DNA of 21,614 bases from a virus: positions 1 to 21,614 of the IMG/VR virus record IMGVR_UViG_3300025674_000474; one strand, 5' to 3'. Shown here piece after piece: positions 2,540-21,341 of this stretch. The position numbers and the translations under genes were made by a program. Each line of letters begins with the position of its first letter. Positions within the stretch are counted from its first letter, which is position 1. The notes beneath the pieces were generated by a model. The model worked only from the letters and a program-made list of their open reading frames with translations, did not search any database and had not been told where the DNA came from.

Positions 2540-3604
2540 ATGGCAAGCACATATCTTACGTTAGTTAATAATGTACTGAGAGATATGAACGAAGTGGAGT
2601 TAACAAGTTCTAACTTTACTAGTTCTAGAGGTGTACAAACTACCGTCAAAGACTACATCAACAGAGCTATATCTGATATACTTAACTCTGAACTAAACTG
2701 GCCCTTTACTAGAGCAGAGGGTGCAGTTGATGCAATTGCAGGTAAGCAACTATATAGTTTTGAATCTATAGCGTCTACTCTTAAGTACATAGACTACGAC
2801 AATGTATTTCTAGAAGCAAAAGATTACATTGCAAATGGTGACTTTGAAATAGATGGTTCAGCTAGTATAACTAACTGGACTACAGTATCAGGTTCTCCTG
2901 CTGCAAGTTCTAAGTTTGGTAACACACTTTTACTTACTAGTGCAAAGGCAACACAAGAAGTAACTGATTTAATTGTAGGTAGGTCTTATACCATACTAAC
3001 TCAGATAAGTGGTGCTACTCTTACTTTAGATGTGGGTACTAGTTCAGGTGGCACACAAACTAAGTCGTCTACTCTTACCATAGCAAGTGGCAACGAAGTC
3101 TTAATATCCCAAACAGTTTTTACAGCAACAGCAACAACTCACTATGTTACATTTACAGAATCAGCAGGGTCTGCGGCTTTTGTTAAGTTGGTGCAACTTA
3201 TGGAAGATGTAACTGCTATACCTCTTAAGTATATATCTTACGAAGAATATAACGAGAAGTACAGAGAACGAGACGCTAGACCTACTACAGATAAGTTTGC
3301 TGATCCAGAATACGTATACACAACATACAACAACGAATTAGGCTTGACTCCTATACCTGACACAAGCAATAGAACATTAAAGTTTGATTACTACGTAACA
3401 AACACTGATCTAACAGCTCACGGTGACACAGGAATAATCCCGACAAGGTTTGAACCAATAGTCAATGCACGTGCAAAGTACTACACCTACATGTTTAGGT
3501 CAGACGTACAGACAGCACAATACGCCCTCAAAGAATACGAAGACGGTATTAAACGGATGAGGGTCGAACTAATAAACAGAAAGAATTACATGAGGGCAGT
3601 ATAG
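2540..3604 (+). CDS. Putative tail adaptor (tail tubular protein A-like) with inserted jelly-roll-like domain
   Basis: The likely role is a head-tail connector ring that binds the portal, comparable in place and size class to T7 gp11. Residues 1-75 form the helical start typical of such adaptors (LVNNVLRDMNEVELTSS, then VKDYINRAISDIL and WPFTRAEG). Residues about 227-354 carry the second half: PLKYISYEEYNEKYRERD, a beta region with LGLTPIPD, then a long C-terminal helix (about 306-350). Between them, residues about 96-224 form an extra beta-rich, Ser/Thr-rich domain opening with NGDFEIDG and NW, like carbohydrate-binding CBM4/9-type jelly rolls. No cysteine is present. The next gene follows without a gap. 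The family call rests on motif memory plus position before the nozzle gene. Confidence 0.7.
   Translation: MASTYLTLVNNVLRDMNEVELTSSNFTSSRGVQTTVKDYINRAISDILNSELNWPFTRAEGAVDAIAGKQLYSFESIASTLKYIDYDNVFLEAKDYIANGDFEIDGSASITNWTTVSGSPAASSKFGNTLLLTSAKATQEVTDLIVGRSYTILTQISGATLTLDVGTSSGGTQTKSSTLTIASGNEVLISQTVFTATATTHYVTFTESAGSAAFVKLVQLMEDVTAIPLKYISYEEYNEKYRERDARPTTDKFADPEYVYTTYNNELGLTPIPDTSNRTLKFDYYVTNTDLTAHGDTGIIPTRFEPIVNARAKYYTYMFRSDVQTAQYALKEYEDGIKRMRVELINRKNYMRAV
2825..3211 (+). other. Inserted CBM-like beta domain within the tail adaptor
   Basis: This covers residues about 96-224 of the adaptor. It reads as a beta-sandwich of the carbohydrate-binding type: a NGDFE opening, a conserved Trp in TNW, GRSYTILTQISG, and alternating Thr/Ser/Val strands to HYVTFTES. 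The flanking halves (ending VFLEAKDY and resuming IPLKYISYEEY) would join sensibly without it. Boundaries are approximate, and the domain identity is inference from pattern. Confidence 0.5.
3592..3596 (+). promoter_or_regulatory. Shine-Dalgarno site supporting the TTG start at 3605
   Basis: GAGGG lies 8 bases before TTG 3605, inside the last codons of the adaptor gene. It decides the unusual TTG start, since no in-frame ATG occurs until well inside the conserved N-terminus. Confidence 0.6.
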
Positions 3605-5116
3605 TTGGCTGACTTAAGTGAAACCGCTGCATTTCCATTCGTCTGTGAAGGTGGATTAGTTCTTAACCAATCTACGTTTATAATGAAACCCGGACAGGCT
3701 TTGGAGCTAGAAAACTTTGAACCTGACATTGATGGTGGGTACAAAAGGATAAACGGTTTTAGCAAGTACGTATCTGCAGTTGTTCCTTTTACATCAAGCA
3801 GTGGTGAAGAAGTTCTTATGGTTGCATCATTTGCCGACAAGGTTGTGGCAGCTAGAGGTACAAGCATATACCAAGCTACTCCTGCAGGATCATCTTGGAC
3901 AAGCATAGATAGTGGCAGAACAAGTGCTACTAAATACAGCTTTGAACGATTTAACTTTGATGGCAACGACAAACTAATAGTTGTGGATGGTGCAAATGCA
4001 CCTACCGTGTTTAACACATCATTTAGTGCAACAGACGTAAGTACAAGTTCTGTATCAGGCTCTAAATTTGTAGTTGCATTTAAAAACCACATGTTCTACG
4101 CAGGTAAATCAACAACTAAACAAGAAGTCGTATTCAGTGAACCTTTTGATGAAGATGGTTTTGACGCTTCAGATGGTGCAGGTAGCATCAAGGTCGATGA
4201 CACAATCGTAGGACTTAAGGTTTTCCGTGATAATTTATTTATCTTTTGTGAAAACAGAATATTTAAACTAGGTGGTAGTTCATCTAGTGACTTTGCTGTT
4301 GTACCAGTTACAAGAAACATCGGGTGTATAAATGGTAACACTATTCAGGAATTTGCTGGTGACCTTATCTTTCTTGGTCCTGATGGCTTGCGTACCATCG
4401 CAGGTACAGCTAGGATCGGTGACGTGGAGTTGGGAACTATAAGTTCTAATGTGCAACCTTTGTTTGATAGACAGATAGCTAACTCTACAAAGTTTGAGTC
4501 TTTGGTTATACCTGACAAGACACAATACAGAATATTTTTTACACAAGACAACGTAGCCGAAAATGGTACTACAGGTGTTATCTGTGTTATGAAAGGTCAA
4601 ACGTTTGAGTTCTCTAAAGTAAAAGGAATCAAGCCAACTTGTACAGATACGTTTGTAGATGATGGAGATGTTATTGCTCTTCACGGATCAATATCAGGTT
4701 TTATTCAAAGACAAGAACAGGGCAGTGATTTTGATGGGGTAGCAATAAATGGAAAGTATCGTAGTCCAGACCTTACAATGAACGATCCGGGAATACGTAA
4801 GCACATGCAGAAAGTTGTAATTAACTACGCACCTGAATCAACTATTGATGCAGATTTGTTTGTTAGATATGATTACGAAAGTGCGGCATCCACTAGACCA
4901 GCAGCATACCCTCTTGATTCAGCAGAAGTGGCAATACTTTATGGTTCATCAACTTACGGAACAGGGGTTTATGGAGGCCCTTCCCAACCACTTGTTAGAC
5001 AGGCAGTTGAAGGTTCAGGATTTGCAGTAGCATTAAGAGTTAACGATGGAGGTACTACTGCACCCTATTCAATAAAAGGATTTCAGTTAGAATACCAATT
5101 AGGAGCAAGACGTTAA
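3605..5116 (+). CDS. Putative tail nozzle / DNA stabilisation protein (tail tubular protein B-like)
   Basis: The likely role is the hexameric nozzle under the adaptor, sealing the packaged DNA, comparable to T7 gp12 or the P22-type stabilisation protein. The 503 residues are almost entirely beta-rich, with repeats that look like propeller blades: VLMVASFADKVVAARGTSIYQ, KLIVVDGANAPTVFN, FVVAFKNHMFYAG, LKVFRDNLFIFCENRIFKLGG and LIFLGPDGLRTIAG. The N-terminus (PFVCEGGLVLNQSTFIMKPG, then ELENFEPDIDGGYKRINGF) matches what I recall of this group in marine phages. Five cysteines are scattered. The start is TTG, directly after the adaptor stop, with GAGGG 8 bases upstream. The gene order adaptor-nozzle-fibre supports the call. 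The C-terminal domain (about 410-503) may contact fibres. Confidence 0.7.
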   Translation: MADLSETAAFPFVCEGGLVLNQSTFIMKPGQALELENFEPDIDGGYKRINGFSKYVSAVVPFTSSSGEEVLMVASFADKVVAARGTSIYQATPAGSSWTSIDSGRTSATKYSFERFNFDGNDKLIVVDGANAPTVFNTSFSATDVSTSSVSGSKFVVAFKNHMFYAGKSTTKQEVVFSEPFDEDGFDASDGAGSIKVDDTIVGLKVFRDNLFIFCENRIFKLGGSSSSDFAVVPVTRNIGCINGNTIQEFAGDLIFLGPDGLRTIAGTARIGDVELGTISSNVQPLFDRQIANSTKFESLVIPDKTQYRIFFTQDNVAENGTTGVICVMKGQTFEFSKVKGIKPTCTDTFVDDGDVIALHGSISGFIQRQEQGSDFDGVAINGKYRSPDLTMNDPGIRKHMQKVVINYAPESTIDADLFVRYDYESAASTRPAAYPLDSAEVAILYGSSTYGTGVYGGPSQPLVRQAVEGSGFAVALRVNDGGTTAPYSIKGFQLEYQLGARR

Positions 5117-10944: not shown

Positions 10945-11139
10945 TTGAAAATGAGTATGCAACCTGAACTAAAAGTACAACTAGAATTAGATGCACACGA
11001 AAAAGAATGTGCCATCCGTTATCAAGCAGTCAATGATAAATTAGAAGCACTAGATAAAAGAATGTGGCGAATAGAAGCTATGTCTATGGTGGGAACTTTA
11101 GGCGTGGTAGCTTTGGTTGTCGCAATAGTAATGAAATAG
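10945..11139 (+). CDS. Coiled-coil protein with C-terminal membrane anchor; possible holin-like (64 aa)
   Basis: Residues 5-45 form a charged helix with heptad spacing (LKVQLELDAHEKECAIRYQ, LEALDKRMWRIEAM). Residues about 46-63 are a single hydrophobic span (SMVGTLGVVALVVAIVM) ending at Lys64. This helix-then-tail-anchor layout resembles the XhlA/haemolysin-type small phage proteins, some of which work with holins. A holin or holin-helper role is therefore plausible but not shown. The TTG start at 10945 has GGAG at 10934-10937, 7 bases upstream; ATG 10951 (two residues shorter) is the alternative. There is one cysteine. It lies between the fibre and core genes, about 9 kb from the lysozyme, an unusual split if both act in lysis. 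Confidence 0.65.
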   Translation: MKMSMQPELKVQLELDAHEKECAIRYQAVNDKLEALDKRMWRIEAMSMVGTLGVVALVVAIVMK

Positions 11140-11148
11140 GATTAGAGT

Positions 11149-12486
11149 ATGGCAATAGATTTAGATACTAAAACCGAAGATTTAGCAGGGAAATTAGGAA
11201 CTTCAGAAACTACAGTAACACCTATTACTCAAGGAGTTCAGGAAAATGAGCTATTAGGAACTCAAGGTCAAACATTATCGCAGACCGATATTCCAACTGT
11301 AGACCCTAAAACGTTAGACCCAACTACAGTAGGAACTACTGCTAAACCTACAGCAACCACAGATTTAGGACAGATAACTACTCCCGTTGCAGGATCAACA
11401 ACTGCAATACAAGGGCAAACATTTACAGGTGCAACCTCTGATTTTAGTGCATCTGACTTAATTGATTTAGATGATATATCCGATGCAACTTTATCTGCAG
11501 GTGCAACAGCAAGTCCTGCACAAGAAGCTTTAGATGAAAAAGCTACTGTAAAGTATCAACTAGAATCTTTATTGGGTGGTATAGAAGATGGAGAACCCCT
11601 ACCTGCTTGGGCATCTCCTGCGGCTAGAAAAGTTACAGCTATAATGCAACAAAGAGGGTTAGGTGCATCTAGTATGGCTGCCGCAGCTTTGACACAAGCT
11701 GTTATGGAATCAGGTATATCTATTGCAGCCAGAGATGCAGGTGCGTATGGAAATATACAACTTAAGAATTTAGATAATAGGCAACAAGCAGCCTTGCAAA
11801 ATGCGTTACAAGTTGCTACAATGGATAGACAGAACGCTGATGCTAGAACTAAAGGTGCAATAAGTAATGCTCAGGCACTTCTGTCCATAGATGTAAAAGA
11901 ACTTGATGCCCAACAACAATCTAACGCTATTAAATACAACGCACTAGCTCAGTCAGCTTTAACAGAAGCTGCCGCTGAAAATGCTAGACAACAGTTTAAT
12001 GCTAAAAATGATTTGCAGGTTGAAGAATATTTTGCAGAGTTAGGGGTTCAAGTAGACACAGCTAATATAAATAGAGATGTTGCAATTAAACAAAACAACA
12101 TAAATCAAGAAAATTCTTTTGCAGAATTTAACGCTAGCATGAAAGATCAACGTGAAAAATTTAATGCTAATATGAGAAACATAATTGATCAATCTAACAC
12201 TAAATGGCGTAGAGAAACAAACACAGCAAATACTGCAGTACAAAATGAAACTAACAGAATAAATGCACAGTTAATGTACAACATGAGTTCTACTGCAATG
12301 AATGACTTATGGCAGAAGTACAGAGACAATGCTACTTTTAACTTTACAGCGTCTGAATCAGAACTGCAAAGAAAACATGAGCAGGTAATTCAAGCGTTGG
12401 AAGCCGCAGCAAATGCAGATGCTTATTCTGCAGCCAATAAGACAACGTTAGCATCAAACATTATTAGAGTAATAGGAGCTTGGTAA
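11149..12486 (+). CDS. Putative internal virion (ejection) protein, 445 aa
   Basis: Residues 1-120 are low-complexity and Thr/Ala/Gln-rich, probably flexible. Residues about 125-430 are helical: YQLESLLGGIEDGEPLPAWA, then an Ala-rich RGLGASSMAAAALTQA, then long Gln/Asn/Ala-rich coiled coil. The PAWASPAARKVTAIMQQRGLG region is a block I associate with marine podovirus virion proteins. There is no cysteine, membrane span or enzymatic motif. Its place right before the two giant proteins matches the T7-like order of a smaller core protein (gp14) followed by larger ones (gp15, gp16), though no direct homology is visible. AGGA overlaps the previous stop. The next gene starts directly after its TAA. 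Confidence 0.6.
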   Translation: MAIDLDTKTEDLAGKLGTSETTVTPITQGVQENELLGTQGQTLSQTDIPTVDPKTLDPTTVGTTAKPTATTDLGQITTPVAGSTTAIQGQTFTGATSDFSASDLIDLDDISDATLSAGATASPAQEALDEKATVKYQLESLLGGIEDGEPLPAWASPAARKVTAIMQQRGLGASSMAAAALTQAVMESGISIAARDAGAYGNIQLKNLDNRQQAALQNALQVATMDRQNADARTKGAISNAQALLSIDVKELDAQQQSNAIKYNALAQSALTEAAAENARQQFNAKNDLQVEEYFAELGVQVDTANINRDVAIKQNNINQENSFAEFNASMKDQREKFNANMRNIIDQSNTKWRRETNTANTAVQNETNRINAQLMYNMSSTAMNDLWQKYRDNATFNFTASESELQRKHEQVIQALEAAANADAYSAANKTTLASNIIRVIGAW

Positions 12487-12867
12487 ATGCAATTTATAGA
12501 TAGTGTTCTTACAGTTCTTTCTGTAGTTAAAAAGGGAGCAGAAATTGTAAATGAACTTAGTGACAAAGATGAAAGTTTAGGCTTTGCTCAACCTAAGAGA
12601 GTTGATTTAGGTTCTAACTTAACTGCAGCTAAAGCACCTTTGAGAGAAATGGAAAATCCTATAGGTATGAGGTTACCTAATATAGAAACAGCCTACCGAT
12701 ATTTTTCAAACAATCTTGCAAGAGATACTAACTTTAGAACACTACAAGGTGAAAACTACGTTGCCAGAAGAAGAAAAGCTACTCCTGCTACAATGACTGT
12801 GGCAACAGATGCAAAAGTCAAAGGCTTTACAGCATCATATAAAACAACTGGCGTACCAACATCGTAA
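12487..12867 (+). CDS. Small virion-region hypothetical protein (126 aa)
   Basis: Unrecognised. It has a helical N-terminus (FIDSVLTVLSVVKKGAEIVNEL), a mostly coil middle with AKAPLREMENPIG and LPNIETAYRYF, and a basic C-terminal half with ARRRKATPATM. There is no cysteine and no convincing membrane span. ATG 12487 abuts the previous stop, and AGGAG at 12474-12478 is 8 bases upstream, so expression should track the 445-aa protein. Embedded between putative core proteins, it is probably a minor virion component or assembly partner. Nothing visible points to an enzyme. Confidence 0.7.
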   Translation: MQFIDSVLTVLSVVKKGAEIVNELSDKDESLGFAQPKRVDLGSNLTAAKAPLREMENPIGMRLPNIETAYRYFSNNLARDTNFRTLQGENYVARRRKATPATMTVATDAKVKGFTASYKTTGVPTS

Positions 12868-12876
12868 GGTAACATA

Positions 12877-13386
12877 ATGGATCAAATACAAACACAGACT
12901 AATGTAAGGTCAGGGTCTATAGAAGCAAAAGACCCCTTTGCACAATCTATTCCCGGAACATCACTTACAGTCGATAATAAAAAATGGGCGTGGGGTAATC
13001 CTCCTGAGAACTCTGATCCAGAAGTTGTACTACAAGAAGCATCAGATAGGCTAGATGATCCTAGATTTAGAGAAGACATGATGAAGTTACTACTAGCAGG
13101 GGTATCAATAGAACACATAGTAGAGACTTGGGTCATTGATGGATTTGAAAGTGGTAAATTTAATTTAGATGTAGGTATGTTAACGAAAGGACCTTTAGGG
13201 GTTTACATAGCATATATAGCTGAAGAAGAAGATGTTCCCTATAGGATGTTTGAAAAAGATGATGGTGGCAGAAATGATAATCGTGTTGATGATGAGTCTT
13301 TCTTTATGCTTATGAAGGATAACAATCCTACTATGTTTGAGACTTTGAGAGAAGGACTAAACAGCACTTTAAGAAAAGGAAAATAG
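12877..13386 (+). CDS. Virion-associated hypothetical protein (169 aa)
   Basis: I recognise the pattern but have no name for it. A disordered N-terminus leads to PGTSLT and W-x-W-x-NPPENSDPEVVLQ, then a helical LDDPRFREDMMKLLLAGVSIE and IVETWVIDGF, then a hydrophobic MLTKGPLGVYIAYIAEEEDV. This PGxSLT / PP-x-(S/T)DP / LLxAGV / GF layout is, from memory, widespread among marine tailed phages as a structural protein of unknown role. There is no cysteine. A short AAGG follows the previous stop, and ATG 12877 lies a few bases on. It ends directly before the 961-aa gene. Acidic residues dominate the C-terminal third (FEKDDGGRNDNRVDDES). Confidence 0.7.
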   Translation: MDQIQTQTNVRSGSIEAKDPFAQSIPGTSLTVDNKKWAWGNPPENSDPEVVLQEASDRLDDPRFREDMMKLLLAGVSIEHIVETWVIDGFESGKFNLDVGMLTKGPLGVYIAYIAEEEDVPYRMFEKDDGGRNDNRVDDESFFMLMKDNNPTMFETLREGLNSTLRKGK

Positions 13387-16272
13387 ATGAGTATTTTTAG
13401 TGATATGCTAAGTGGCAAAGACCCTGTAGGGTTTGGTCTTTTAAATGGTAGCATGGAAGTTTTTGTAGCAGGTAGAACTGCAGAAAAAAAACAAGCAAGA
13501 GAAGCTGCTAAAAAAGCAGTAGAGGTAAAAGAAGCCAATCAGCAGACTTTTGTTGACTTAATAAAAGATAGCCAAGAACTTTCTTCAATAGCATTAAATA
13601 GTCCATATTTTAAAAATAGGATGGTAAATTTAGCTAAGACAAATCCAGATTTGTACAACGCTGTAGCAATTAAATCTTTAGGTGCAAGAGAAGTCACACC
13701 TTACAATGAAAAAATTATAACACAGGCTTCTGGAAATTCAACATTTGCAGCAAATTTTATAGCTAGTAATGGTGATTACTTAAAACAAAACCCTAACCTT
13801 GCTAGAATTTTAAAAACGACTGCAGCTTCTCCTACTTTAACTGAAGGACAAAACAGAATACTATCATCTGTTAGAACTAAACAAGACGCTGTAAACTTAA
13901 GAGATAGTTATTTTCCTGTAATAAAAACTAAAGAATCATTTGAAGGACCTTTAAGTGTTACAATAGATGGGGGAAGACCTGTTGATACTAAAACAGGAAA
14001 AGAAATTACAGGAGACTTAACAGAGTACAGGGATGGCAACCCAACAAAAAACTCTTTATTCTGGGTATTAAATGCAAGAGCAGAGCAGGAAGATGAGTTT
14101 GAAGGTTTATCCGATACAAATATAAACACTATGAAAGCTACAATTAAAGAATCAGAAAACCCTATTCAAACTGTGGCTAAATTAAAAGAAAGAATAGACC
14201 CTAAAGATGTTAAATCTTTATTCTTTTTGGAAGCTTTTAAAAGTGCATTTGCAAAAAAAGAAAATTCTACATTGACAGTAAGTCAAATACTTGAACAAGC
14301 TGTGACTATGACTTCCGATAGTATTAAAGATGACACCACTAGAGGTATGTTTGCAAAAGAAATACTAAACACTGCCGAAATTAAAAACTTAGCAGGTGGT
14401 GATCTTAACGCAATGTTAAATTCTACCGATAAAAAAGAACAAAAAAATGCTATGAATATTTTTGCTCTTAAGTCATTAGCTAATACAGTAGATAAAGTTG
14501 CAAAAGGTGAAGGCAAATCAGGAGTAACCTACGGTAACGTTACTTTATTTCCTGCAAAGATAACTGAGATAGGAAAAAATAGAGAGACAGCAGATTCATT
14601 TTTGTCAAGAATGAATAACTTAAACTTAAAATACAATGGTAAAGCAGTAGACATTAAAGGTTTCTTAGAAGTATTACCTGAACAAGAAAAAGCTATGCTT
14701 ATATCAGATATAACATCAACTATGAAAAACCATAATACTTTAGTTACGCAAAGGACAGTAACTGATAGTGGAAAAAAGTTTCAAGAAAGACCAATTGATT
14801 ACAGAATAAGTTTTCCTGCACTGTATGAGATACCAGAAATAAAAGCGTTTATACACGGGCCACGTTTAGGTCAACCTCCAGAGGGATTTAGCCTTGAAAA
14901 TAATAATATAGCAAATGCTCAAACTAGTGATGGAACAGAAACAGGTAATCCTCTTCCTGCTAATCAATTTAAATTAAAGAATGAAGATACTGTTACGGTA
15001 CAACCTGAAGTTGTACAATTTGCAAATGCAAAAGGGTTTAGTAAAATTTCTGACATGCTAAAAGATGACGGGTACTTTGAAGCACTAGAGGGGTCAGGTG
15101 GATTCAGAGCTAATATGAGTGGTGTGCTAGAAGGCAATAACAAAATATTTAAAGCCAGTAACGCTATTATTAAACAAGTTCCTAACATTTCAAACGTTGC
15201 TATGCTAAGACAAAAAGACTTTGCATCTATAGCTCGTACTATCATTAATCAAAATATTGACGATGATGCCGATGTATTTCAAGTAATATCAACTTTGATG
15301 AGTGATGATTTTAATATACAAAAACAAGCTGGAACACTAGGTTATTCTCAAGAACAGATTGATGCTGCTATACAAAGATTGAGTAAAGGTCAATTAAATG
15401 CAGATGATTTAGCAAAACAAAATAATAATTTAAACGCTTATGTTTCCACCTTAAATAGTGCTATTAATAATATAGGAGTACAAGGTGACAGAAACAATGC
15501 AGCAATAGCTCTTGAAAATATTGTAACTGATTTATATTCATCTCAAACTGGTCTTATACCATCTACTATAGGATTTGTTCTTGAAAAATTTCAAGGTGAT
15601 AACTTTGAAAGAGATCAAGGTCAAAGAACTGTAGATAGTATGAACTCTGCGTTAAAAAGATTAACAGCAGACTCAAGATTAACAAAGGACAGAAGAATTA
15701 GTAGTGCAAAGTTAGCGTCTAATTTAATAACAATAGCGTATCAAAGAGCAAAAACTTTAGACCCTAATGGTAGAATATCTGACAGAGACTTTAAAGCTGC
15801 CCTAGAAAGTATTGAGTCTTCATTTTTTGCAAGTAATCAAATTACAAAAACTTTGTTAATAGGTTTTAAAAATGATGTTGAAGCACAGTTGACAATAAAT
15901 GAAAATCTTCTAGAGGTGTTTACAAACACATCAACAGATAATAGCACAGCCTTATTAAAGAAAAATATTCGTGCTATACGTGCAGTTCCTGCTTTTAAAA
16001 GAATAAGACAAATGATTAGTTCTATAAATAACGTCAAAGAATATAGAGATAGATTTACAGAAGGTAACAAAATACCCAGTAATTTTTCCCTTGATATAGT
16101 ACAAAGCCACAATACAAATCAGTTAGGTATATCCTCAGAGTTACAAATATATCAAGTGGTGCGAAAAACCAACACAAGAGACCCTATAGCTGTAGGTCTA
16201 CCTGTGTATACAGATAAAATGGGAAAAATGTTAACATCTAAGGAATTAGCAGAGAGAGGTTTTAGACCATAA
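13387..16272 (+). CDS. Large putative internal core protein (961 aa)
   Basis: A long, mainly alpha-helical, polar protein with high Lys/Asn/Asp/Ser content and no cysteine. Near the N-terminus is a coiled-coil-like basic helix (residues about 33-55, EKKQAREAAKKAVEVKEANQ). I see no enzymatic motif, signal peptide or clear membrane span. Size and position fit the middle member of a T7-like set of ejected core proteins (gp15-like), but this is inferred from context, not from shared motifs. ATG 13387 abuts the preceding TAG, with AAGGA upstream. The stop overlaps the next start as TAATG at 16270-16274, so the two giant proteins are probably translated in step. A tape measure is less likely because long uniform coiled coil is absent and the tail genes are of short-tail type. 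Confidence 0.6.
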   Translation: MSIFSDMLSGKDPVGFGLLNGSMEVFVAGRTAEKKQAREAAKKAVEVKEANQQTFVDLIKDSQELSSIALNSPYFKNRMVNLAKTNPDLYNAVAIKSLGAREVTPYNEKIITQASGNSTFAANFIASNGDYLKQNPNLARILKTTAASPTLTEGQNRILSSVRTKQDAVNLRDSYFPVIKTKESFEGPLSVTIDGGRPVDTKTGKEITGDLTEYRDGNPTKNSLFWVLNARAEQEDEFEGLSDTNINTMKATIKESENPIQTVAKLKERIDPKDVKSLFFLEAFKSAFAKKENSTLTVSQILEQAVTMTSDSIKDDTTRGMFAKEILNTAEIKNLAGGDLNAMLNSTDKKEQKNAMNIFALKSLANTVDKVAKGEGKSGVTYGNVTLFPAKITEIGKNRETADSFLSRMNNLNLKYNGKAVDIKGFLEVLPEQEKAMLISDITSTMKNHNTLVTQRTVTDSGKKFQERPIDYRISFPALYEIPEIKAFIHGPRLGQPPEGFSLENNNIANAQTSDGTETGNPLPANQFKLKNEDTVTVQPEVVQFANAKGFSKISDMLKDDGYFEALEGSGGFRANMSGVLEGNNKIFKASNAIIKQVPNISNVAMLRQKDFASIARTIINQNIDDDADVFQVISTLMSDDFNIQKQAGTLGYSQEQIDAAIQRLSKGQLNADDLAKQNNNLNAYVSTLNSAINNIGVQGDRNNAAIALENIVTDLYSSQTGLIPSTIGFVLEKFQGDNFERDQGQRTVDSMNSALKRLTADSRLTKDRRISSAKLASNLITIAYQRAKTLDPNGRISDRDFKAALESIESSFFASNQITKTLLIGFKNDVEAQLTINENLLEVFTNTSTDNSTALLKKNIRAIRAVPAFKRIRQMISSINNVKEYRDRFTEGNKIPSNFSLDIVQSHNTNQLGISSELQIYQVVRKTNTRDPIAVGLPVYTDKMGKMLTSKELAERGFRP

Positions 16273-19200
16273 TGGCAACAGTTGTAGATTATCTAGGAGC
16301 AGGCCCTGAAGTTTTACAAAGTGATATTGTATCTAACAGGTTTCCCAGTGGCAATGATGGTGATCCTAAAAGAAGCATAGTAGATTTTCAGGCAGAAGAA
16401 GCAGGTAGCGTTGAACTTAACCCTAGAGAAGTGCAGGAAGATGTTTTTAAAAAAGCTTTGAATAAAGAAGTTGATGTTAATTCTTTTTTTCAAGGCCCTA
16501 ACAAAATAGATTCTACTGTAATTGAAAACGCTTTAAGTGCTAACGAAGCTTTAAACCTTGCTGCTTCAGCTAATCAAGTTCTTCCTAATGCACAACAATT
16601 AAATGAACAGATTAATTTGTTTAAAACAAGTTATGATAGGTCTGTACCTACTAGTGACACGTTATATCAGGGAGTTAAGGAAACAGGTTCGTTTCCTATA
16701 AACGTTGCTACAGGCGAAGTAATGATGCCTGATAATATTAAGTTTGTTGAAAGTGATCAAAATACATTTATGAAGAATGTGTTTCCTAACAATAGAACTA
16801 TCTTAGAAGATAAAGCTAAGGTTGAAGGTAAATTCATAGAGTGGTCTTCTACTCAGCCTGAAGCACCTGCAGACCCAAAAATACTTAAAGCAATAGCTAG
16901 AAGATTTAACCCTACTTTGGGAGCTAACCTCGCTAGGAGAACCTATGAAACTGTTGGATTTTTAAAAGAGGGTCTTGCTTTTTATCTTCCTGAGTTAGTT
17001 GAGGGAACTGCTAAGATGCTGTTGCCCGATTCTATTTTTGACGAACCTAGAGATACATTTTTTTCTGATACAATGGAAAAAGAATTAGCACAGTTTAGAA
17101 AAGATGGTGCGTTTGGTCTTTCACAATTGCTACCTGACACAGACAGGCATAGGATACTTAACGATCTAATACGTGATGATATTAGTAAAACTATGAGTCC
17201 TGAAGAATTTGAACAAAGAGGTTATAATGAAAAAATAACCGTTGATGGAATAGAAGTATTTAAAAAGAATTTTGTAACTCCTAAATTTGCTAGTCAAGTG
17301 TTTGAATATGCAATAGATGAAATGGGATTTTTTAATCAGGTAGCCACATTTATAGCAGAAGGAGGGGTAGCATTTAAAGCTTTAACTGCTCCTGTTATTT
17401 TAACAAAAAGAATATCAGATGGTATAAATGGTACACAAAGAATACTACATAAAAGAAAATATGGTTCATCAAATGTGCCTTTTGTAAAAGATACAATAAA
17501 CAGTCAAGTGGCAAGATCAAAGTCGTATGCCCTTACTCACGGTGTAACTGTAAAAGATGCAGCAAAAGAAATAGCTTTGATGAATACTAATGAAGGCAGG
17601 CTTGCTAAATTTTCTGCTAACAGAATAGCTAATATTGTAAATAAAAGATTTAATTACGAATCTGTTAAAGATAAAACTAAAACTATACAGACTCAAATAG
17701 ATGAAAAAGGAAGACTTCTTACACAAGCACGTTTGTCTAAAAATTCTACCTATGCAGATAAATTAGCTGATGAATTACGTACACTAAAAAATAATAGAAA
17801 CTATCAAATGTATAAAATAGCAGGTGCAAACGCCCTGCTTGTTGGTCTTAACCCTAGACAGGATTTAACTATAGGTATGGTTCAAGCTTCGGGTAGAACT
17901 GCATTTGCAAGCTCGGATGGAACAAGAGATGGCTCTATGGGGGAGGGTGTAGCTGTCGCAGGTTATTTATTATTTGGTGGAATTAAAAAATTATATAACT
18001 ATCAATCAGGAATTAAAATACCACTTGTTGAGGATTTTGTACAAAACAGAGCTTTTCAGGCTAAGATAGGAATAGAAAGTATTGCTGACATACTACTACT
18101 TGGCTACGGAAAAGGTATGTTAGTCAATCCAGATTTAAGCAGTTTAAATAGCTTAAAGGGTAAGCTAAATATAAGCGTTACAGGTATAAGAACTATTGAT
18201 CAATTTACAAAAAACGCTTTGGGATTACCAAAATACCAATCAGACGCAATTATAAAAAATTTAATGGAGTCCGTTCAAGACATACATCTTATGACTAAGG
18301 ATATACCTGAACAGTTTAGAAAAGGTATACAAGATAAACTAGTTTTAAGTTTAGCAGACTCAGCAGGAATAAACGTTTTTCACGGGATATCACAGGTCTT
18401 AAGCTTAGAGCAACTAGGGTATAAAAAAAGAGATATTCTTAAGTTTAGTAAAAATGTTAAGAGAGCTATGGATGTTCAAGATTTTGGGGAAGAAAGAATT
18501 AAAAATTTTTCTGCTGTTGCTGATGGTCTTAAGGCACAGATACTTGAACTAGAAAATTCAGCAACAGTTGCACCTGAAGTTATAGGCAGATTAAGAACAG
18601 TAGCTCGTCAATACGAAGAGACTGCTAAGAATCAACAGCTAATGTTTGACCAATCTGTACAATCAGATATTGTAGACATTGACAATTTCCTTACTGAATT
18701 ATCTAACCCACAAAATGAAGAGATACTTAAAATGTGGACTTCAGGAAAAAACGTTGACAACGGTTTAGCTAAACTTTTTGAACTTAGAAATAAAGCAGAG
18801 ACGTATCTAACAGGGCGACTTGCCAGTGGTACTAACGTAGAAATTATATATGAAGCAAAAGATAAATTAGTAGATTTAGCAGGGGGTCTTGTAGATGCTA
18901 TAATAAAAACTAACAAGAGATTGGAACTTACCTCTAATCAAGCTTCAGCTATAGATAACTCAAATAAATCTATAAAAGCATTAACAACAATAATAAGAGA
19001 GGTATCTAACTCTAAAATTGAAACTGCTTACAGCCGAATAGACCCATCACAGTCAATTGATTTTGTAAACACAGGTGATAATATAGTTACTATGTTCCAA
19101 GATTTTGCGGCAGGGTATGGTACGGATATATCTAAGATGACTAATCTTGATACGTCTCCTCTTTTAGGAAGTTCGGCAGGATCACAGTTGTTAAGAAATC

Positions 19201-21341
19201 TTGAAAAGGGATCAAAACGTGGTCTTATGAGAGTATTTAATGATTCTGATATTCTTGATATAATGAATAAACAGCTAAATAAAGATGATACCCCGTTTGA
19301 ATCAGGTGATGATCTTTACAAATATTTTAAAGATGAAGCACAATCAAATTCTGCAATCAGAACTAAATATGGCTTGAGTGAAAATGATACCATGAGTAAT
19401 TTTCAAATGCTACAATACATGGTGCAAAATGATAAGTTAGCTTTTAATGCTGACGACTTTGGATTCTTAGCATCCCCAATAGAATTTGAAAAACTACGAC
19501 AATCATTTCAAGTTTTCTCAAAAGATAGTAACTCTACTTTGCGTTCTTTAGGTGTACGCATGGTTAATTTAATTGATCAAGATTTTAAACTTTGGGGTCA
19601 ATCTGCAAACGTTGACACCTACAATGACGTTATTAGAGCAAGAACTATAGCAAGGCTTGAAAAACAAAGGTTTGATAAAAATACTATAGGAGATCAAATA
19701 GATCAAGTAGCAAGTGGTAGTCCTATTAAATTTTTAGGGATAGATGGTAAAGAGACAACTATAACTAAAAGTAGCATAAATAAAATATTTGACCCTATGA
19801 TAAATGCTATTATTAAACCTAGTGATACAACTAGATCATTTGTAGAAAGTGAAATGGATAGGTTTATATCAACTTTTGCATCCACATCAGACACTCTACC
19901 AAGTAACATATTAGTTAAAGATTCAACAGGTAAATTTCAAAACCCATCAAGCCAACAGATAAGTGGTATGGTAAAGCCTGTATTTGATTTAACTCAAAAA
20001 GATGGAGTTGCAGGGTTAAAGGCATTAAGTGAAACATTACAATCATTAATGTATAGCAAATTTATATCTACTAAAGGTATGTCTAATGTAGCCGAACAAA
20101 TAAAAAATGGGGATACTCCTGACGTAACACAGATGACTCTTGGAAATTTAAGAACAAAAGATACTGAAGGATTTAATCTACCTAAAGCAGTACCTCTTCC
20201 TACTCAATTTAAAAACTATGAAGAATACATTAGTGCAATGGAAGAACTTATAACAGTAACTGTAAGAAAAGTTAACAAAGAAACTGGTGAAATTGAAGAG
20301 ATACCTATGCCAGCTTTTAATGTTAGGGATATGATAAGGTCAGAGGAACACATAACTAACACCATAATGTCTTCTAAAAATTTTAAACAGACACATAAAG
20401 AATTTGTAGATTTAGTAAAAAAAGAAAATGAAGTTGCTCAAAGTGCTACAGTTAAATTATTTCAAGCAGAACAAAGTGAAGTTTATAAAAAAAGTAGATT
20501 ATACAAAGAGAACATGACAGGTGAATCTTTTTTTAATGATGTAATAATGAGAGGTGATCCTAACTCAGTAGACATATATGTATCCGATATAAACAGATTA
20601 GTTGATGCAGGTGAAATGACATTACAACAAGGTCAAAAAGCTTTACAAGCTCTTGTGGTAGATGTGCTAAGGGCATCAGGACAGGAGAGCAAGAACGGTG
20701 CAACATTTAAATTTTATAATGGTCAAAAGATGCCTATAAGTTCTTACCAAACTCCCGAAGTTCCATTTGCTTTATTGACTGCGTTTGATGATTTAGCAAA
20801 TGATGGCACAAAGACTGCCTTATCTTTTTCCTCACAAAAATTTAATGCTCTTATGGATGCAGCAGGCGTAACTGAAGATCAAAAAGAAGTTCTTATAGCA
20901 ATGTATAGACATTCAACAAAGACAGATGCCCAAGCTGTTTTAAAAAGAGCCAGCCAAAGTGGATCAAAATTAGTAGGTCCTAATCCCGGATTTACATTAA
21001 ACAACACTTTATCTAAAGCCTTTAACATAGCTAGAGGTATGGTTAGTAAAGAATATGTAATGGCAGAAATGGCTATAAGATATGCGGCCTTAGCTGATGG
21101 TGCGATACTTAATACTATCTTGAATGATGAAAGAGTGTCAAACACTATTCTTAATTTGATGAATGATCCTACACGAGTGTTAGAAGCCGATGCTGATTAC
21201 TTTGTACGAGCAATGATAAAATTCTCAGCCACTGCTCTTAAAAATGTAACACAATTAAACCACGATAATATGTACAAAGAAGAAGACTACTGGCGATCTG
21301 GAGGGGTTGTATACCCTAAACAAAAGAAACAATTAAACTAA
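16272..21341 (+). CDS. Giant putative internal/ejection protein (1689 aa)
   Basis: The largest gene of the window. Most of it is helical and polar. Three regions are hydrophobic enough to touch or cross a membrane: residues about 350-378 (MGFFNQVATFIAEGGVAFKA then LTAPVIL), about 515-530 (IAGANALLVGL) and about 555-575 (GVAVAGYLLFGGIKKLY), with a weaker one at about 600-615 (IADILLLGYGKG). It has no cysteine. I looked for lysozyme or transglycosylase active-site motifs near the N-terminus and saw none. By size and order it resembles the largest ejected core protein (T7 gp16-like) that helps DNA cross the envelope; that is contextual inference. The start overlaps the upstream stop by one base. 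The C-terminus ends YWRSGGVVYPKQKKQ, and GGAGAG follows the stop as the next gene's ribosome-binding site. Confidence 0.6.
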   Translation: MATVVDYLGAGPEVLQSDIVSNRFPSGNDGDPKRSIVDFQAEEAGSVELNPREVQEDVFKKALNKEVDVNSFFQGPNKIDSTVIENALSANEALNLAASANQVLPNAQQLNEQINLFKTSYDRSVPTSDTLYQGVKETGSFPINVATGEVMMPDNIKFVESDQNTFMKNVFPNNRTILEDKAKVEGKFIEWSSTQPEAPADPKILKAIARRFNPTLGANLARRTYETVGFLKEGLAFYLPELVEGTAKMLLPDSIFDEPRDTFFSDTMEKELAQFRKDGAFGLSQLLPDTDRHRILNDLIRDDISKTMSPEEFEQRGYNEKITVDGIEVFKKNFVTPKFASQVFEYAIDEMGFFNQVATFIAEGGVAFKALTAPVILTKRISDGINGTQRILHKRKYGSSNVPFVKDTINSQVARSKSYALTHGVTVKDAAKEIALMNTNEGRLAKFSANRIANIVNKRFNYESVKDKTKTIQTQIDEKGRLLTQARLSKNSTYADKLADELRTLKNNRNYQMYKIAGANALLVGLNPRQDLTIGMVQASGRTAFASSDGTRDGSMGEGVAVAGYLLFGGIKKLYNYQSGIKIPLVEDFVQNRAFQAKIGIESIADILLLGYGKGMLVNPDLSSLNSLKGKLNISVTGIRTIDQFTKNALGLPKYQSDAIIKNLMESVQDIHLMTKDIPEQFRKGIQDKLVLSLADSAGINVFHGISQVLSLEQLGYKKRDILKFSKNVKRAMDVQDFGEERIKNFSAVADGLKAQILELENSATVAPEVIGRLRTVARQYEETAKNQQLMFDQSVQSDIVDIDNFLTELSNPQNEEILKMWTSGKNVDNGLAKLFELRNKAETYLTGRLASGTNVEIIYEAKDKLVDLAGGLVDAIIKTNKRLELTSNQASAIDNSNKSIKALTTIIREVSNSKIETAYSRIDPSQSIDFVNTGDNIVTMFQDFAAGYGTDISKMTNLDTSPLLGSSAGSQLLRNLEKGSKRGLMRVFNDSDILDIMNKQLNKDDTPFESGDDLYKYFKDEAQSNSAIRTKYGLSENDTMSNFQMLQYMVQNDKLAFNADDFGFLASPIEFEKLRQSFQVFSKDSNSTLRSLGVRMVNLIDQDFKLWGQSANVDTYNDVIRARTIARLEKQRFDKNTIGDQIDQVASGSPIKFLGIDGKETTITKSSINKIFDPMINAIIKPSDTTRSFVESEMDRFISTFASTSDTLPSNILVKDSTGKFQNPSSQQISGMVKPVFDLTQKDGVAGLKALSETLQSLMYSKFISTKGMSNVAEQIKNGDTPDVTQMTLGNLRTKDTEGFNLPKAVPLPTQFKNYEEYISAMEELITVTVRKVNKETGEIEEIPMPAFNVRDMIRSEEHITNTIMSSKNFKQTHKEFVDLVKKENEVAQSATVKLFQAEQSEVYKKSRLYKENMTGESFFNDVIMRGDPNSVDIYVSDINRLVDAGEMTLQQGQKALQALVVDVLRASGQESKNGATFKFYNGQKMPISSYQTPEVPFALLTAFDDLANDGTKTALSFSSQKFNALMDAAGVTEDQKEVLIAMYRHSTKTDAQAVLKRASQSGSKLVGPNPGFTLNNTLSKAFNIARGMVSKEYVMAEMAIRYAALADGAILNTILNDERVSNTILNLMNDPTRVLEADADYFVRAMIKFSATALKNVTQLNHDNMYKEEDYWRSGGVVYPKQKKQLN

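Follow-up and report, generated by a model that had tools for sequence, protein, structure and literature searches.

A cysteine-free block of five predicted ejection proteins in an HMO-2011-type marine podophage, and the scarcity of cysteine in ejected proteins of short-tailed phages

In phage T7, the internal proteins are ejected ahead of the DNA and build a channel across the host envelope (PMC8954989, PMC11784390), and in phage SU10, gp20-24 are present in the virion and gone from the genome-release intermediate (PMC9509320). For one ejected protein, the virion RNA polymerase (vRNAP) of phage N4, the lack of cysteine has been proposed to permit passage through the tail or through the Dsb-containing periplasm (PMC3715699, PMC3915230), a proposal also found in PMC2784036, which cites Kazmierczak 2002. 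Cysteine and disulfides are not mentioned in the ejection-protein review PMC8954989 or in recent structural papers on N4 and T7, and we did not find the idea applied beyond the N4 vRNAP in the open-access literature, although an earlier general statement may exist. Here, we describe a block at positions 11,149 to 21,341 of a single viral contig of 21,614 bases (IMG/VR record IMGVR_UViG_3300025674_000474; the whole contig is hereafter the window), in which five consecutive, abutting open reading frames on the plus strand, E1 to E5, encode 3,390 residues and no cysteine. We extend the observation from one protein to whole ejected sets in unrelated phage families, which appears to be new.

Translation of the open reading frames confirmed the coordinates, lengths and absence of cysteine given for these genes in a preliminary description of the window. 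E1 (11149..12486; 445 residues) is a predicted ejection protein of a conserved family, E2 (12487..12867; 126 residues) is a small protein, and E3 (12877..13386; 169 residues) belongs to the family that anchors the block. E4 (13387..16272; 961 residues) is the first large protein past this anchor, a position we call d1, and E5 (16272..21341; 1689 residues), at position d2, is the largest protein in the block and the positional counterpart of gp16-type ejection proteins. Cysteine is not globally absent, as the same description had pointed out: there are five in the tail nozzle, four in the LamG protein, five in a membrane protein and seven in a 34-residue protein.

From the codon-position base frequencies of the same five genes, 37.3 cysteines were expected and none was seen; tryptophan, which also has a TG codon, was not depleted (12 seen versus 8.2 expected). 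When cysteine was predicted instead from the 19 remaining amino acids by Poisson regression, with 456 other phage proteins as the training set, the expectation was 15.4. The shortfall held under both models (15.4-37.3 expected), among them the amino-acid-composition null that had been proposed as a check. At the rate of the other large tail genes of the window (12 cysteines in 2,788 residues), about 14.6 would be expected, and the probability of zero, assuming independent sites, is about 5e-7. When the 31 cysteines of the window were placed at random, a cysteine-free run of at least 3,432 residues arose in 0 of 200,000 placements, and restricting the test to the virion genes, with their 13 cysteines, gave P = 4e-4. 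Taken by itself, the window is significant, not extreme, and it is the homologues that decide.

The nozzle (3605..5116, plus strand) is 56.9% identical across its full length to that of Puniceispirillum phage HMO-2011, followed by HTVC033P, HTVC115P and the Roseobacter CRP phages, and by sequence the window is that of an HMO-2011-type marine podophage, sharing the late gene order of nozzle, fibres, E1, E2, E3 anchor and two large proteins. The syntenic blocks of HMO-2011 (gp25-22), HTVC033P (gp56-52), HTVC115P (with gp40 partly read) and CRP-1 hold one cysteine in all, and relatives that infect Rhizobium, Vibrio, Pseudoalteromonas, Aeromonas, Roseobacter and SAR11, as well as the more distant E. 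coli phage PTXU04, are also near zero with single exceptions. We gathered 76 loci using the E3 family as an anchor, blind to cysteine content, with three single-protein queries, and counted families after dereplication at 70% identity. The proteins at d1 contain no cysteine in 24,374 residues (49 clusters; 268 expected from codon-position base composition) and those at d2 none in 45,309 residues (36 clusters; 609 expected), which together gives 0 in 69,683 residues versus 877 expected. The smaller members are similarly depleted, with 2 cysteines in 12,343 residues for the E1 family (23 clusters), 0 in 4,463 for the E2 position (38 clusters) and 2 in 5,323 for the E3 family (30 clusters), so that relatives of E1 to E5 are also at or close to zero, as had been anticipated. 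In the same loci, together with loci fetched with the nozzle, the rates per 1000 residues were 8.1 for TerL, 8.4 for the nozzle, 4.7 for the portal and 1.7 for the coat protein.

Out-of-frame TGY triplets occur in the block genes at about 40 per 1000 codons, as often as elsewhere; together with the undepleted tryptophan, this means that selection acts on the protein and not on the DNA. A DNA-level cause, avoidance of the TGY triplet, was rejected, since the triplet is equally common out of frame inside and outside the block. All proteins of such blocks and the ejection proteins of other podophages (INDEPENDENCE) formed 90 BLAST groups, 82 of which lack cysteine entirely and 8 of which contain any. 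Even at the same position, E5 of the window and the d2 proteins of the HTVC033P type showed no relation by profile-profile comparison, and both are at zero, which therefore was reached without detectable shared sequence.

The pattern extends to well-studied podophages. There is no cysteine in gp15 and gp16 of T7 (2,065 residues), in gp7, gp20 and gp16 of P22 (1,309 residues) or in gp50, gp51 and gp52 of N4 (4,294 residues), and none in the sets of SP6 and phiKMV, in gp15/16 of P-SSP7, in gp50-53 of LUZ24 or in gp22-26 of phiEco32; the ejected status of several of these sets rests on annotation, position or size, and the sets of LUZ24 and of HTVC010P were assigned here partly guided by the cysteine pattern and are not independent support. 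The comparison with T7 that had been proposed thus held for gp15 and gp16 and not fully for gp14, which carries a single cysteine, Cys2. Among 80 P-SSP7-like IMG/VR loci, dereplicated at 90%, gp16 has 0 cysteines in 44,357 residues and gp15 has 0 in 33,718 (78,075 together), with a rate of 2.6 per 1000 in the fibre, and among 80 P22-like loci, gp16 has 0 in 4,984 residues, with 11.6 per 1000 in the tailspike. Ejected peptidoglycan hydrolases have no cysteine (epsilon15 gp15 has 2), whereas 1-7 cysteines occur in the small endolysins (118-244 residues) of comparable phages.

Agreement with a measured set was seen in SU10, which we examined only once the rule had been formed. Its gp20-24 are exactly the cysteine-free run (0 in 2,956 residues), and the preceding gp19 has 6 cysteines; the earlier proposal that the edge of the block could mark the full ejected set therefore holds for this experimentally measured phage. 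More generally, the longest cysteine-free run of the late region contained the ejection set in 11 of 13 podophages, the window included. This run takes in part of the set in HMO-2011 and epsilon15, and the corresponding run in lambda is gpH, the tape measure protein. Because runs can spill into adjoining genes, the edge is precise to about one gene and not to the residue.

Several lines of evidence, drawn from position, size and relatives, indicate that E1 to E5 are very probably ejected. The late-operon genes of the window adjoin the tail genes and end in very large proteins, as podophage ejection sets do. Among the homologous blocks, d2 proteins of the HTVC033P type are homologous to P-SSP7 gp16 by BLAST, those of two loci (L119, L134) match the PHROG internal virion protein families 342 and 6651, and an LPD38 domain, known from large polyvalent proteins, is present in d2 of L102 and L134. 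Ejection sets commonly include a peptidoglycan hydrolase, and one with LysM and GH19 domains lies inside the CRP-207 block; a Pfam search found no peptidoglycan hydrolase in the block of the window. None of E1 to E5 matched Pfam or PHROG, E4 and E5 had no tblastn match in isolated phages, and PDB profile searches with alignments of E1, d2 and E5 gave no credible match, and these searches, with the profile comparison of E5, detected no homology of the window's own E4 and E5 to known ejection proteins. Syntaxin matches to E1 in the PDB search were rejected as coiled-coil noise, and an AlphaFold2 model of E1 was nearly all helix at low confidence (mean predicted local distance difference test score 53, predicted template modelling score 0.26).

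E3 is the least certain member of the set, because two of its relatives carry internal cysteines. Most members of its family share an N-terminal motif, P(I/V)(P/A)GxSLT...PW..PP, whose form PIPGxSLT...PW..PP is kept across relatives while the remainder of the protein drifts, and which could dock the protein to the portal or core.

The exceptions are concentrated at chain ends. Of the 18 cysteines in ejection-set proteins that we examined individually, 9 are no more than 10 residues from an end, versus 0.78 expected, by a test devised post hoc, after the data had been seen; background proteins have slightly fewer terminal cysteines than expected. The nine include the three gp14 Cys2 residues of T7, epsilon15 and P-SSP7. 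The P-SSP7-like survey yielded 36 distinct gp14 proteins, of which 35, with starts chosen consistently, have their sole cysteine at residue 2, the other one being truncated. A conserved cysteine at the N terminus of gp14-type proteins, in a set that otherwise has none, suggests a role, for example as a site of modification or as an anchor. T7 gp6.7, the partner of gp14 in the channel, likewise starts with MC (L155; the gp14 type is also seen in L158, L169 and L178-L257).

P22-like gp7 proteins have few cysteines, all at residues 10-18, in or near a 20-residue N-terminal stretch that, according to the P22 record, is cleaved off by a host protease. C18 lies inside the cleaved stretch in two homologues (L276, L299), C17 probably does so in a third (L289), and C10 of a fourth (L284) is upstream of a likely later start. 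After cleavage of the leader, mature P22-like gp7 (L156, L276, L299, L289) may thus be free of cysteine. Two cysteine-containing homologues of P22 gp20, in open reading frames next to gp16 homologues (L305 1-1587, L267 2424-4001), were set aside as chimeras whose starts are gp10-like or, by reading, Rz-like; they are possibly decayed prophages or assembly errors.

Taking these data together, we consider it probable that the block encodes the ejection proteins (internal virion proteins) of this HMO-2011-type marine podophage and that its cysteines were purged by selection on the protein. E1 to E5 would be packed in the head, move through the tail partly unfolded ahead of the DNA, and regain their fold in the host envelope, lengthening the tail so that it spans the periplasm. 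If such a chain carried a reactive thiol while it unfolded, threaded and refolded in an oxidizing compartment, wrong disulfides would form inside the chain, with other copies or with a host oxidoreductase such as DsbA, and any of these would jam the channel or stop refolding. Since even single cysteines are absent, intrachain bonds should not be the only harmful kind, and those to other copies or to host oxidoreductases should count as well; terminal cysteines would be tolerated because the harm is expected from branching or looping of the threading chain. That the loss of thiols is complete except at chain ends argues for unfolded threading and for refolding in an oxidizing compartment, which bears on the open question of how large folded proteins pass through a tail of 30-45 A.

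With somewhat less assurance, we favor a broader rule: the exclusion of internal cysteine would be convergent and near absolute in proteins that short-tailed phages push across the Gram-negative envelope, relaxed only towards the chain ends and within N-terminal leaders, and would not extend to cytoplasmic delivery by contractile-tailed phages, so that the longest cysteine-free run would mark the ejected set without homology. Ejection proteins are among the least recognizable phage proteins, as E1 to E5 illustrate. If a missing amino acid can flag phage proteins that cross the bacterial envelope, such a homology-free rule would allow ejected sets to be named in many uncultured podophages.

A number of observations weigh against this explanation. 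The ejection proteins epsilon15 gp15-17 are cysteine-poor only (4 in 2,394 residues), and, in a second test after SU10, the crAss001 proteins gp45-50, described as cargo proteins (PMC10172136), have 7 cysteines in 7,478 residues (0.94 per 1000, versus 7-13 per 1000 in the muzzle, gp25 and gp26) and so are cysteine-poor, not cysteine-free. Two proteins keep cysteine though they are ejected, P1 DarB (9 in 2,255 residues) and T4 Alt (2 in the 501 residues read). Conversely, proteins that are not ejected can lack it: in the window, the 354-residue tail adaptor lacks cysteine and the 824-residue first fibre has one, so that the virion proteins of the window are cysteine-poor in general, and in HMO-2011-type loci, the first fibre and the adaptor are poor in cysteine too (1.0 and 2.2 per 1000). 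For HMO-2011-type phages, we found no proteomics or ejection measurements in the open-access literature. Most seriously, the scaffolds of 20 HMO-2011-type clusters have 0 cysteines in 5,853 residues where base composition predicts 40, although they are not ejected through the tail, and scaffolds at or near zero also occur in T7, P22, SP6, P-SSP7, LUZ24 and HTVC010P. The preliminary description had named equally cysteine-free virion proteins that are not ejected as a point that would count against its reading, and for the scaffolds this is partly what we saw. As scaffolds are almost cysteine-free, the absence of cysteine is insufficient as the sole mark of ejection.

DarB and Alt also bear on the step at which cysteine would do harm. 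Long contractile tails deliver beyond the periplasm. Passage through a tail cannot alone be the explanation, because both proteins leave through one yet keep their cysteines, and these two proteins suggest that exposure to the periplasm explains more than passage through the tail.

The scaffolds are the main support for the strongest alternative, that proteins packed inside the procapsid, scaffold and cargo alike, lose cysteine through cross-linking or a blocked exit and not through ejection; the second-longest cysteine-free run is also often located at the scaffold. Against this, DarB and Alt are packed in the head and have cysteine, portals retain 1-7, and lambda gpH, which lies outside the head, has none. 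Tolerance of terminal cysteines in ejected proteins is also not predicted by a simple cross-linking of packed copies. We regard a procapsid-interior constraint as unlikely to be the main cause, though it deserves more weight than the other alternatives. The scaffolds themselves could reflect either a related exit constraint, since scaffolds too leave the shell, or a contributing procapsid-interior effect.

Far less probable is that the absence is a by-product of composition, long helical structural proteins rich in Gln, Asn, Lys and Glu being poor in cysteine anyway and an AT-rich genome adding to the effect. Scaffold, fibre and E1-type proteins are indeed cysteine-poor, and for the E1 family the composition model expects just 1.4 per 1000. 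However, given the other 19 amino acids, 132 cysteines are still expected at d1 and 455 at d2, and none was seen; the proteins closest to d1 and d2 in composition have 4-5 per 1000; and the 877 expected from codon-position base composition remain after dereplication. Pseudomonas phages (phiKMV and LUZ24, the latter with a set assigned partly by cysteine pattern) show the same zero. A compositional origin is thus contradicted for d1 and d2, and part of the E1 deficit may be of this kind. Least probable of all is the inheritance of a single ancestral cysteine-free module without current selection, because although E1 and E3 are recognizably homologous throughout the HMO-2011 group, the large proteins form many groups without detectable similarity, all at zero, P-SSP7-like gp15/16 lack cysteine throughout the surveyed residues, tryptophan is retained, and the divergence is not too recent for cysteine to have arisen, so that without selection it would have reappeared. 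Overall, our results support the earlier interpretation of the block as ejected proteins that have lost cysteine.

Around the block, the window runs from fibres to a 64-residue membrane protein (10945..11139, plus strand) and then to E1-E5. This left border protein has one C-terminal transmembrane segment and one cysteine, lies outside the block, reads as holin-like from its sequence, and shares the motif HEKECAIRY with HMO-2011 gp26. The tail adaptor (2540..3604, plus strand), a virion protein of the SU10 type, matches Pfam PF24175 and PHROG 10775. The nozzle is not predicted to be ejected. The 34-residue protein at 1244-1348 has the pattern CxxCxCYxCDxEECxCDCH and is possibly a metal-binding microprotein; similar cysteine-rich mini-proteins occur in many HMO-2011-type loci (L003-L022), with a different type in L119 and L131. 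In HTVC115P (L091 25861-26310) and CRP-235 (L163 25525-25947), a gene annotated as toxin-activating lysine-acyltransferase lies, oddly for that annotation, between the fibres and the ejection block. Between portal and scaffold, HMO-2011-type phages have a protein of 430-1,095 residues (gp49 in HMO-2011) with 0-3 cysteines in each of L089, L092, L159, L164, L028 and L064, and it may be a further internal protein.

Compared with described systems, the block is most like the modules of HMO-2011, HTVC033P and CRP-1, which are syntenic, lie downstream of the fibres, contain the E3 family and are cysteine-free or nearly so; unlike theirs, E4 and E5 of the window form homology groups of their own (L082-L085, L152, L153 and fragments). 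The Kuravirus sets, SU10 gp20-24 and phiEco32 gp22-26, are likewise five consecutive late cysteine-free proteins in phages whose adaptor also belongs to PF24175, whereas gene order and fibres differ, and the phiEco32 set has no BLAST similarity to the block. The T7 set of gp6.7, gp14, gp15 and gp16 resembles the block in its cysteine-free gp15 and gp16, with just Cys2 in gp14 and gp6.7; no homology of E5 to gp16 types could be detected, and, unlike the T7 set, the block showed no transglycosylase domain. The gp50 vRNAP of the N4 family (Schitoviridae) is, like E1-E5, a giant ejected podophage protein, or predicted to be so, with no cysteine, and gp51 and gp52 are at zero too; the published remark concerns one enzyme in one family, whereas here a five-gene block and unrelated phage families are involved. 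Searches of Pfam and PHROG found no polymerase domain in E4 or E5, E5 had no PDB match, and we do not class the block as a vRNAP; in its absence of cysteine, it works like the N4 vRNAP.

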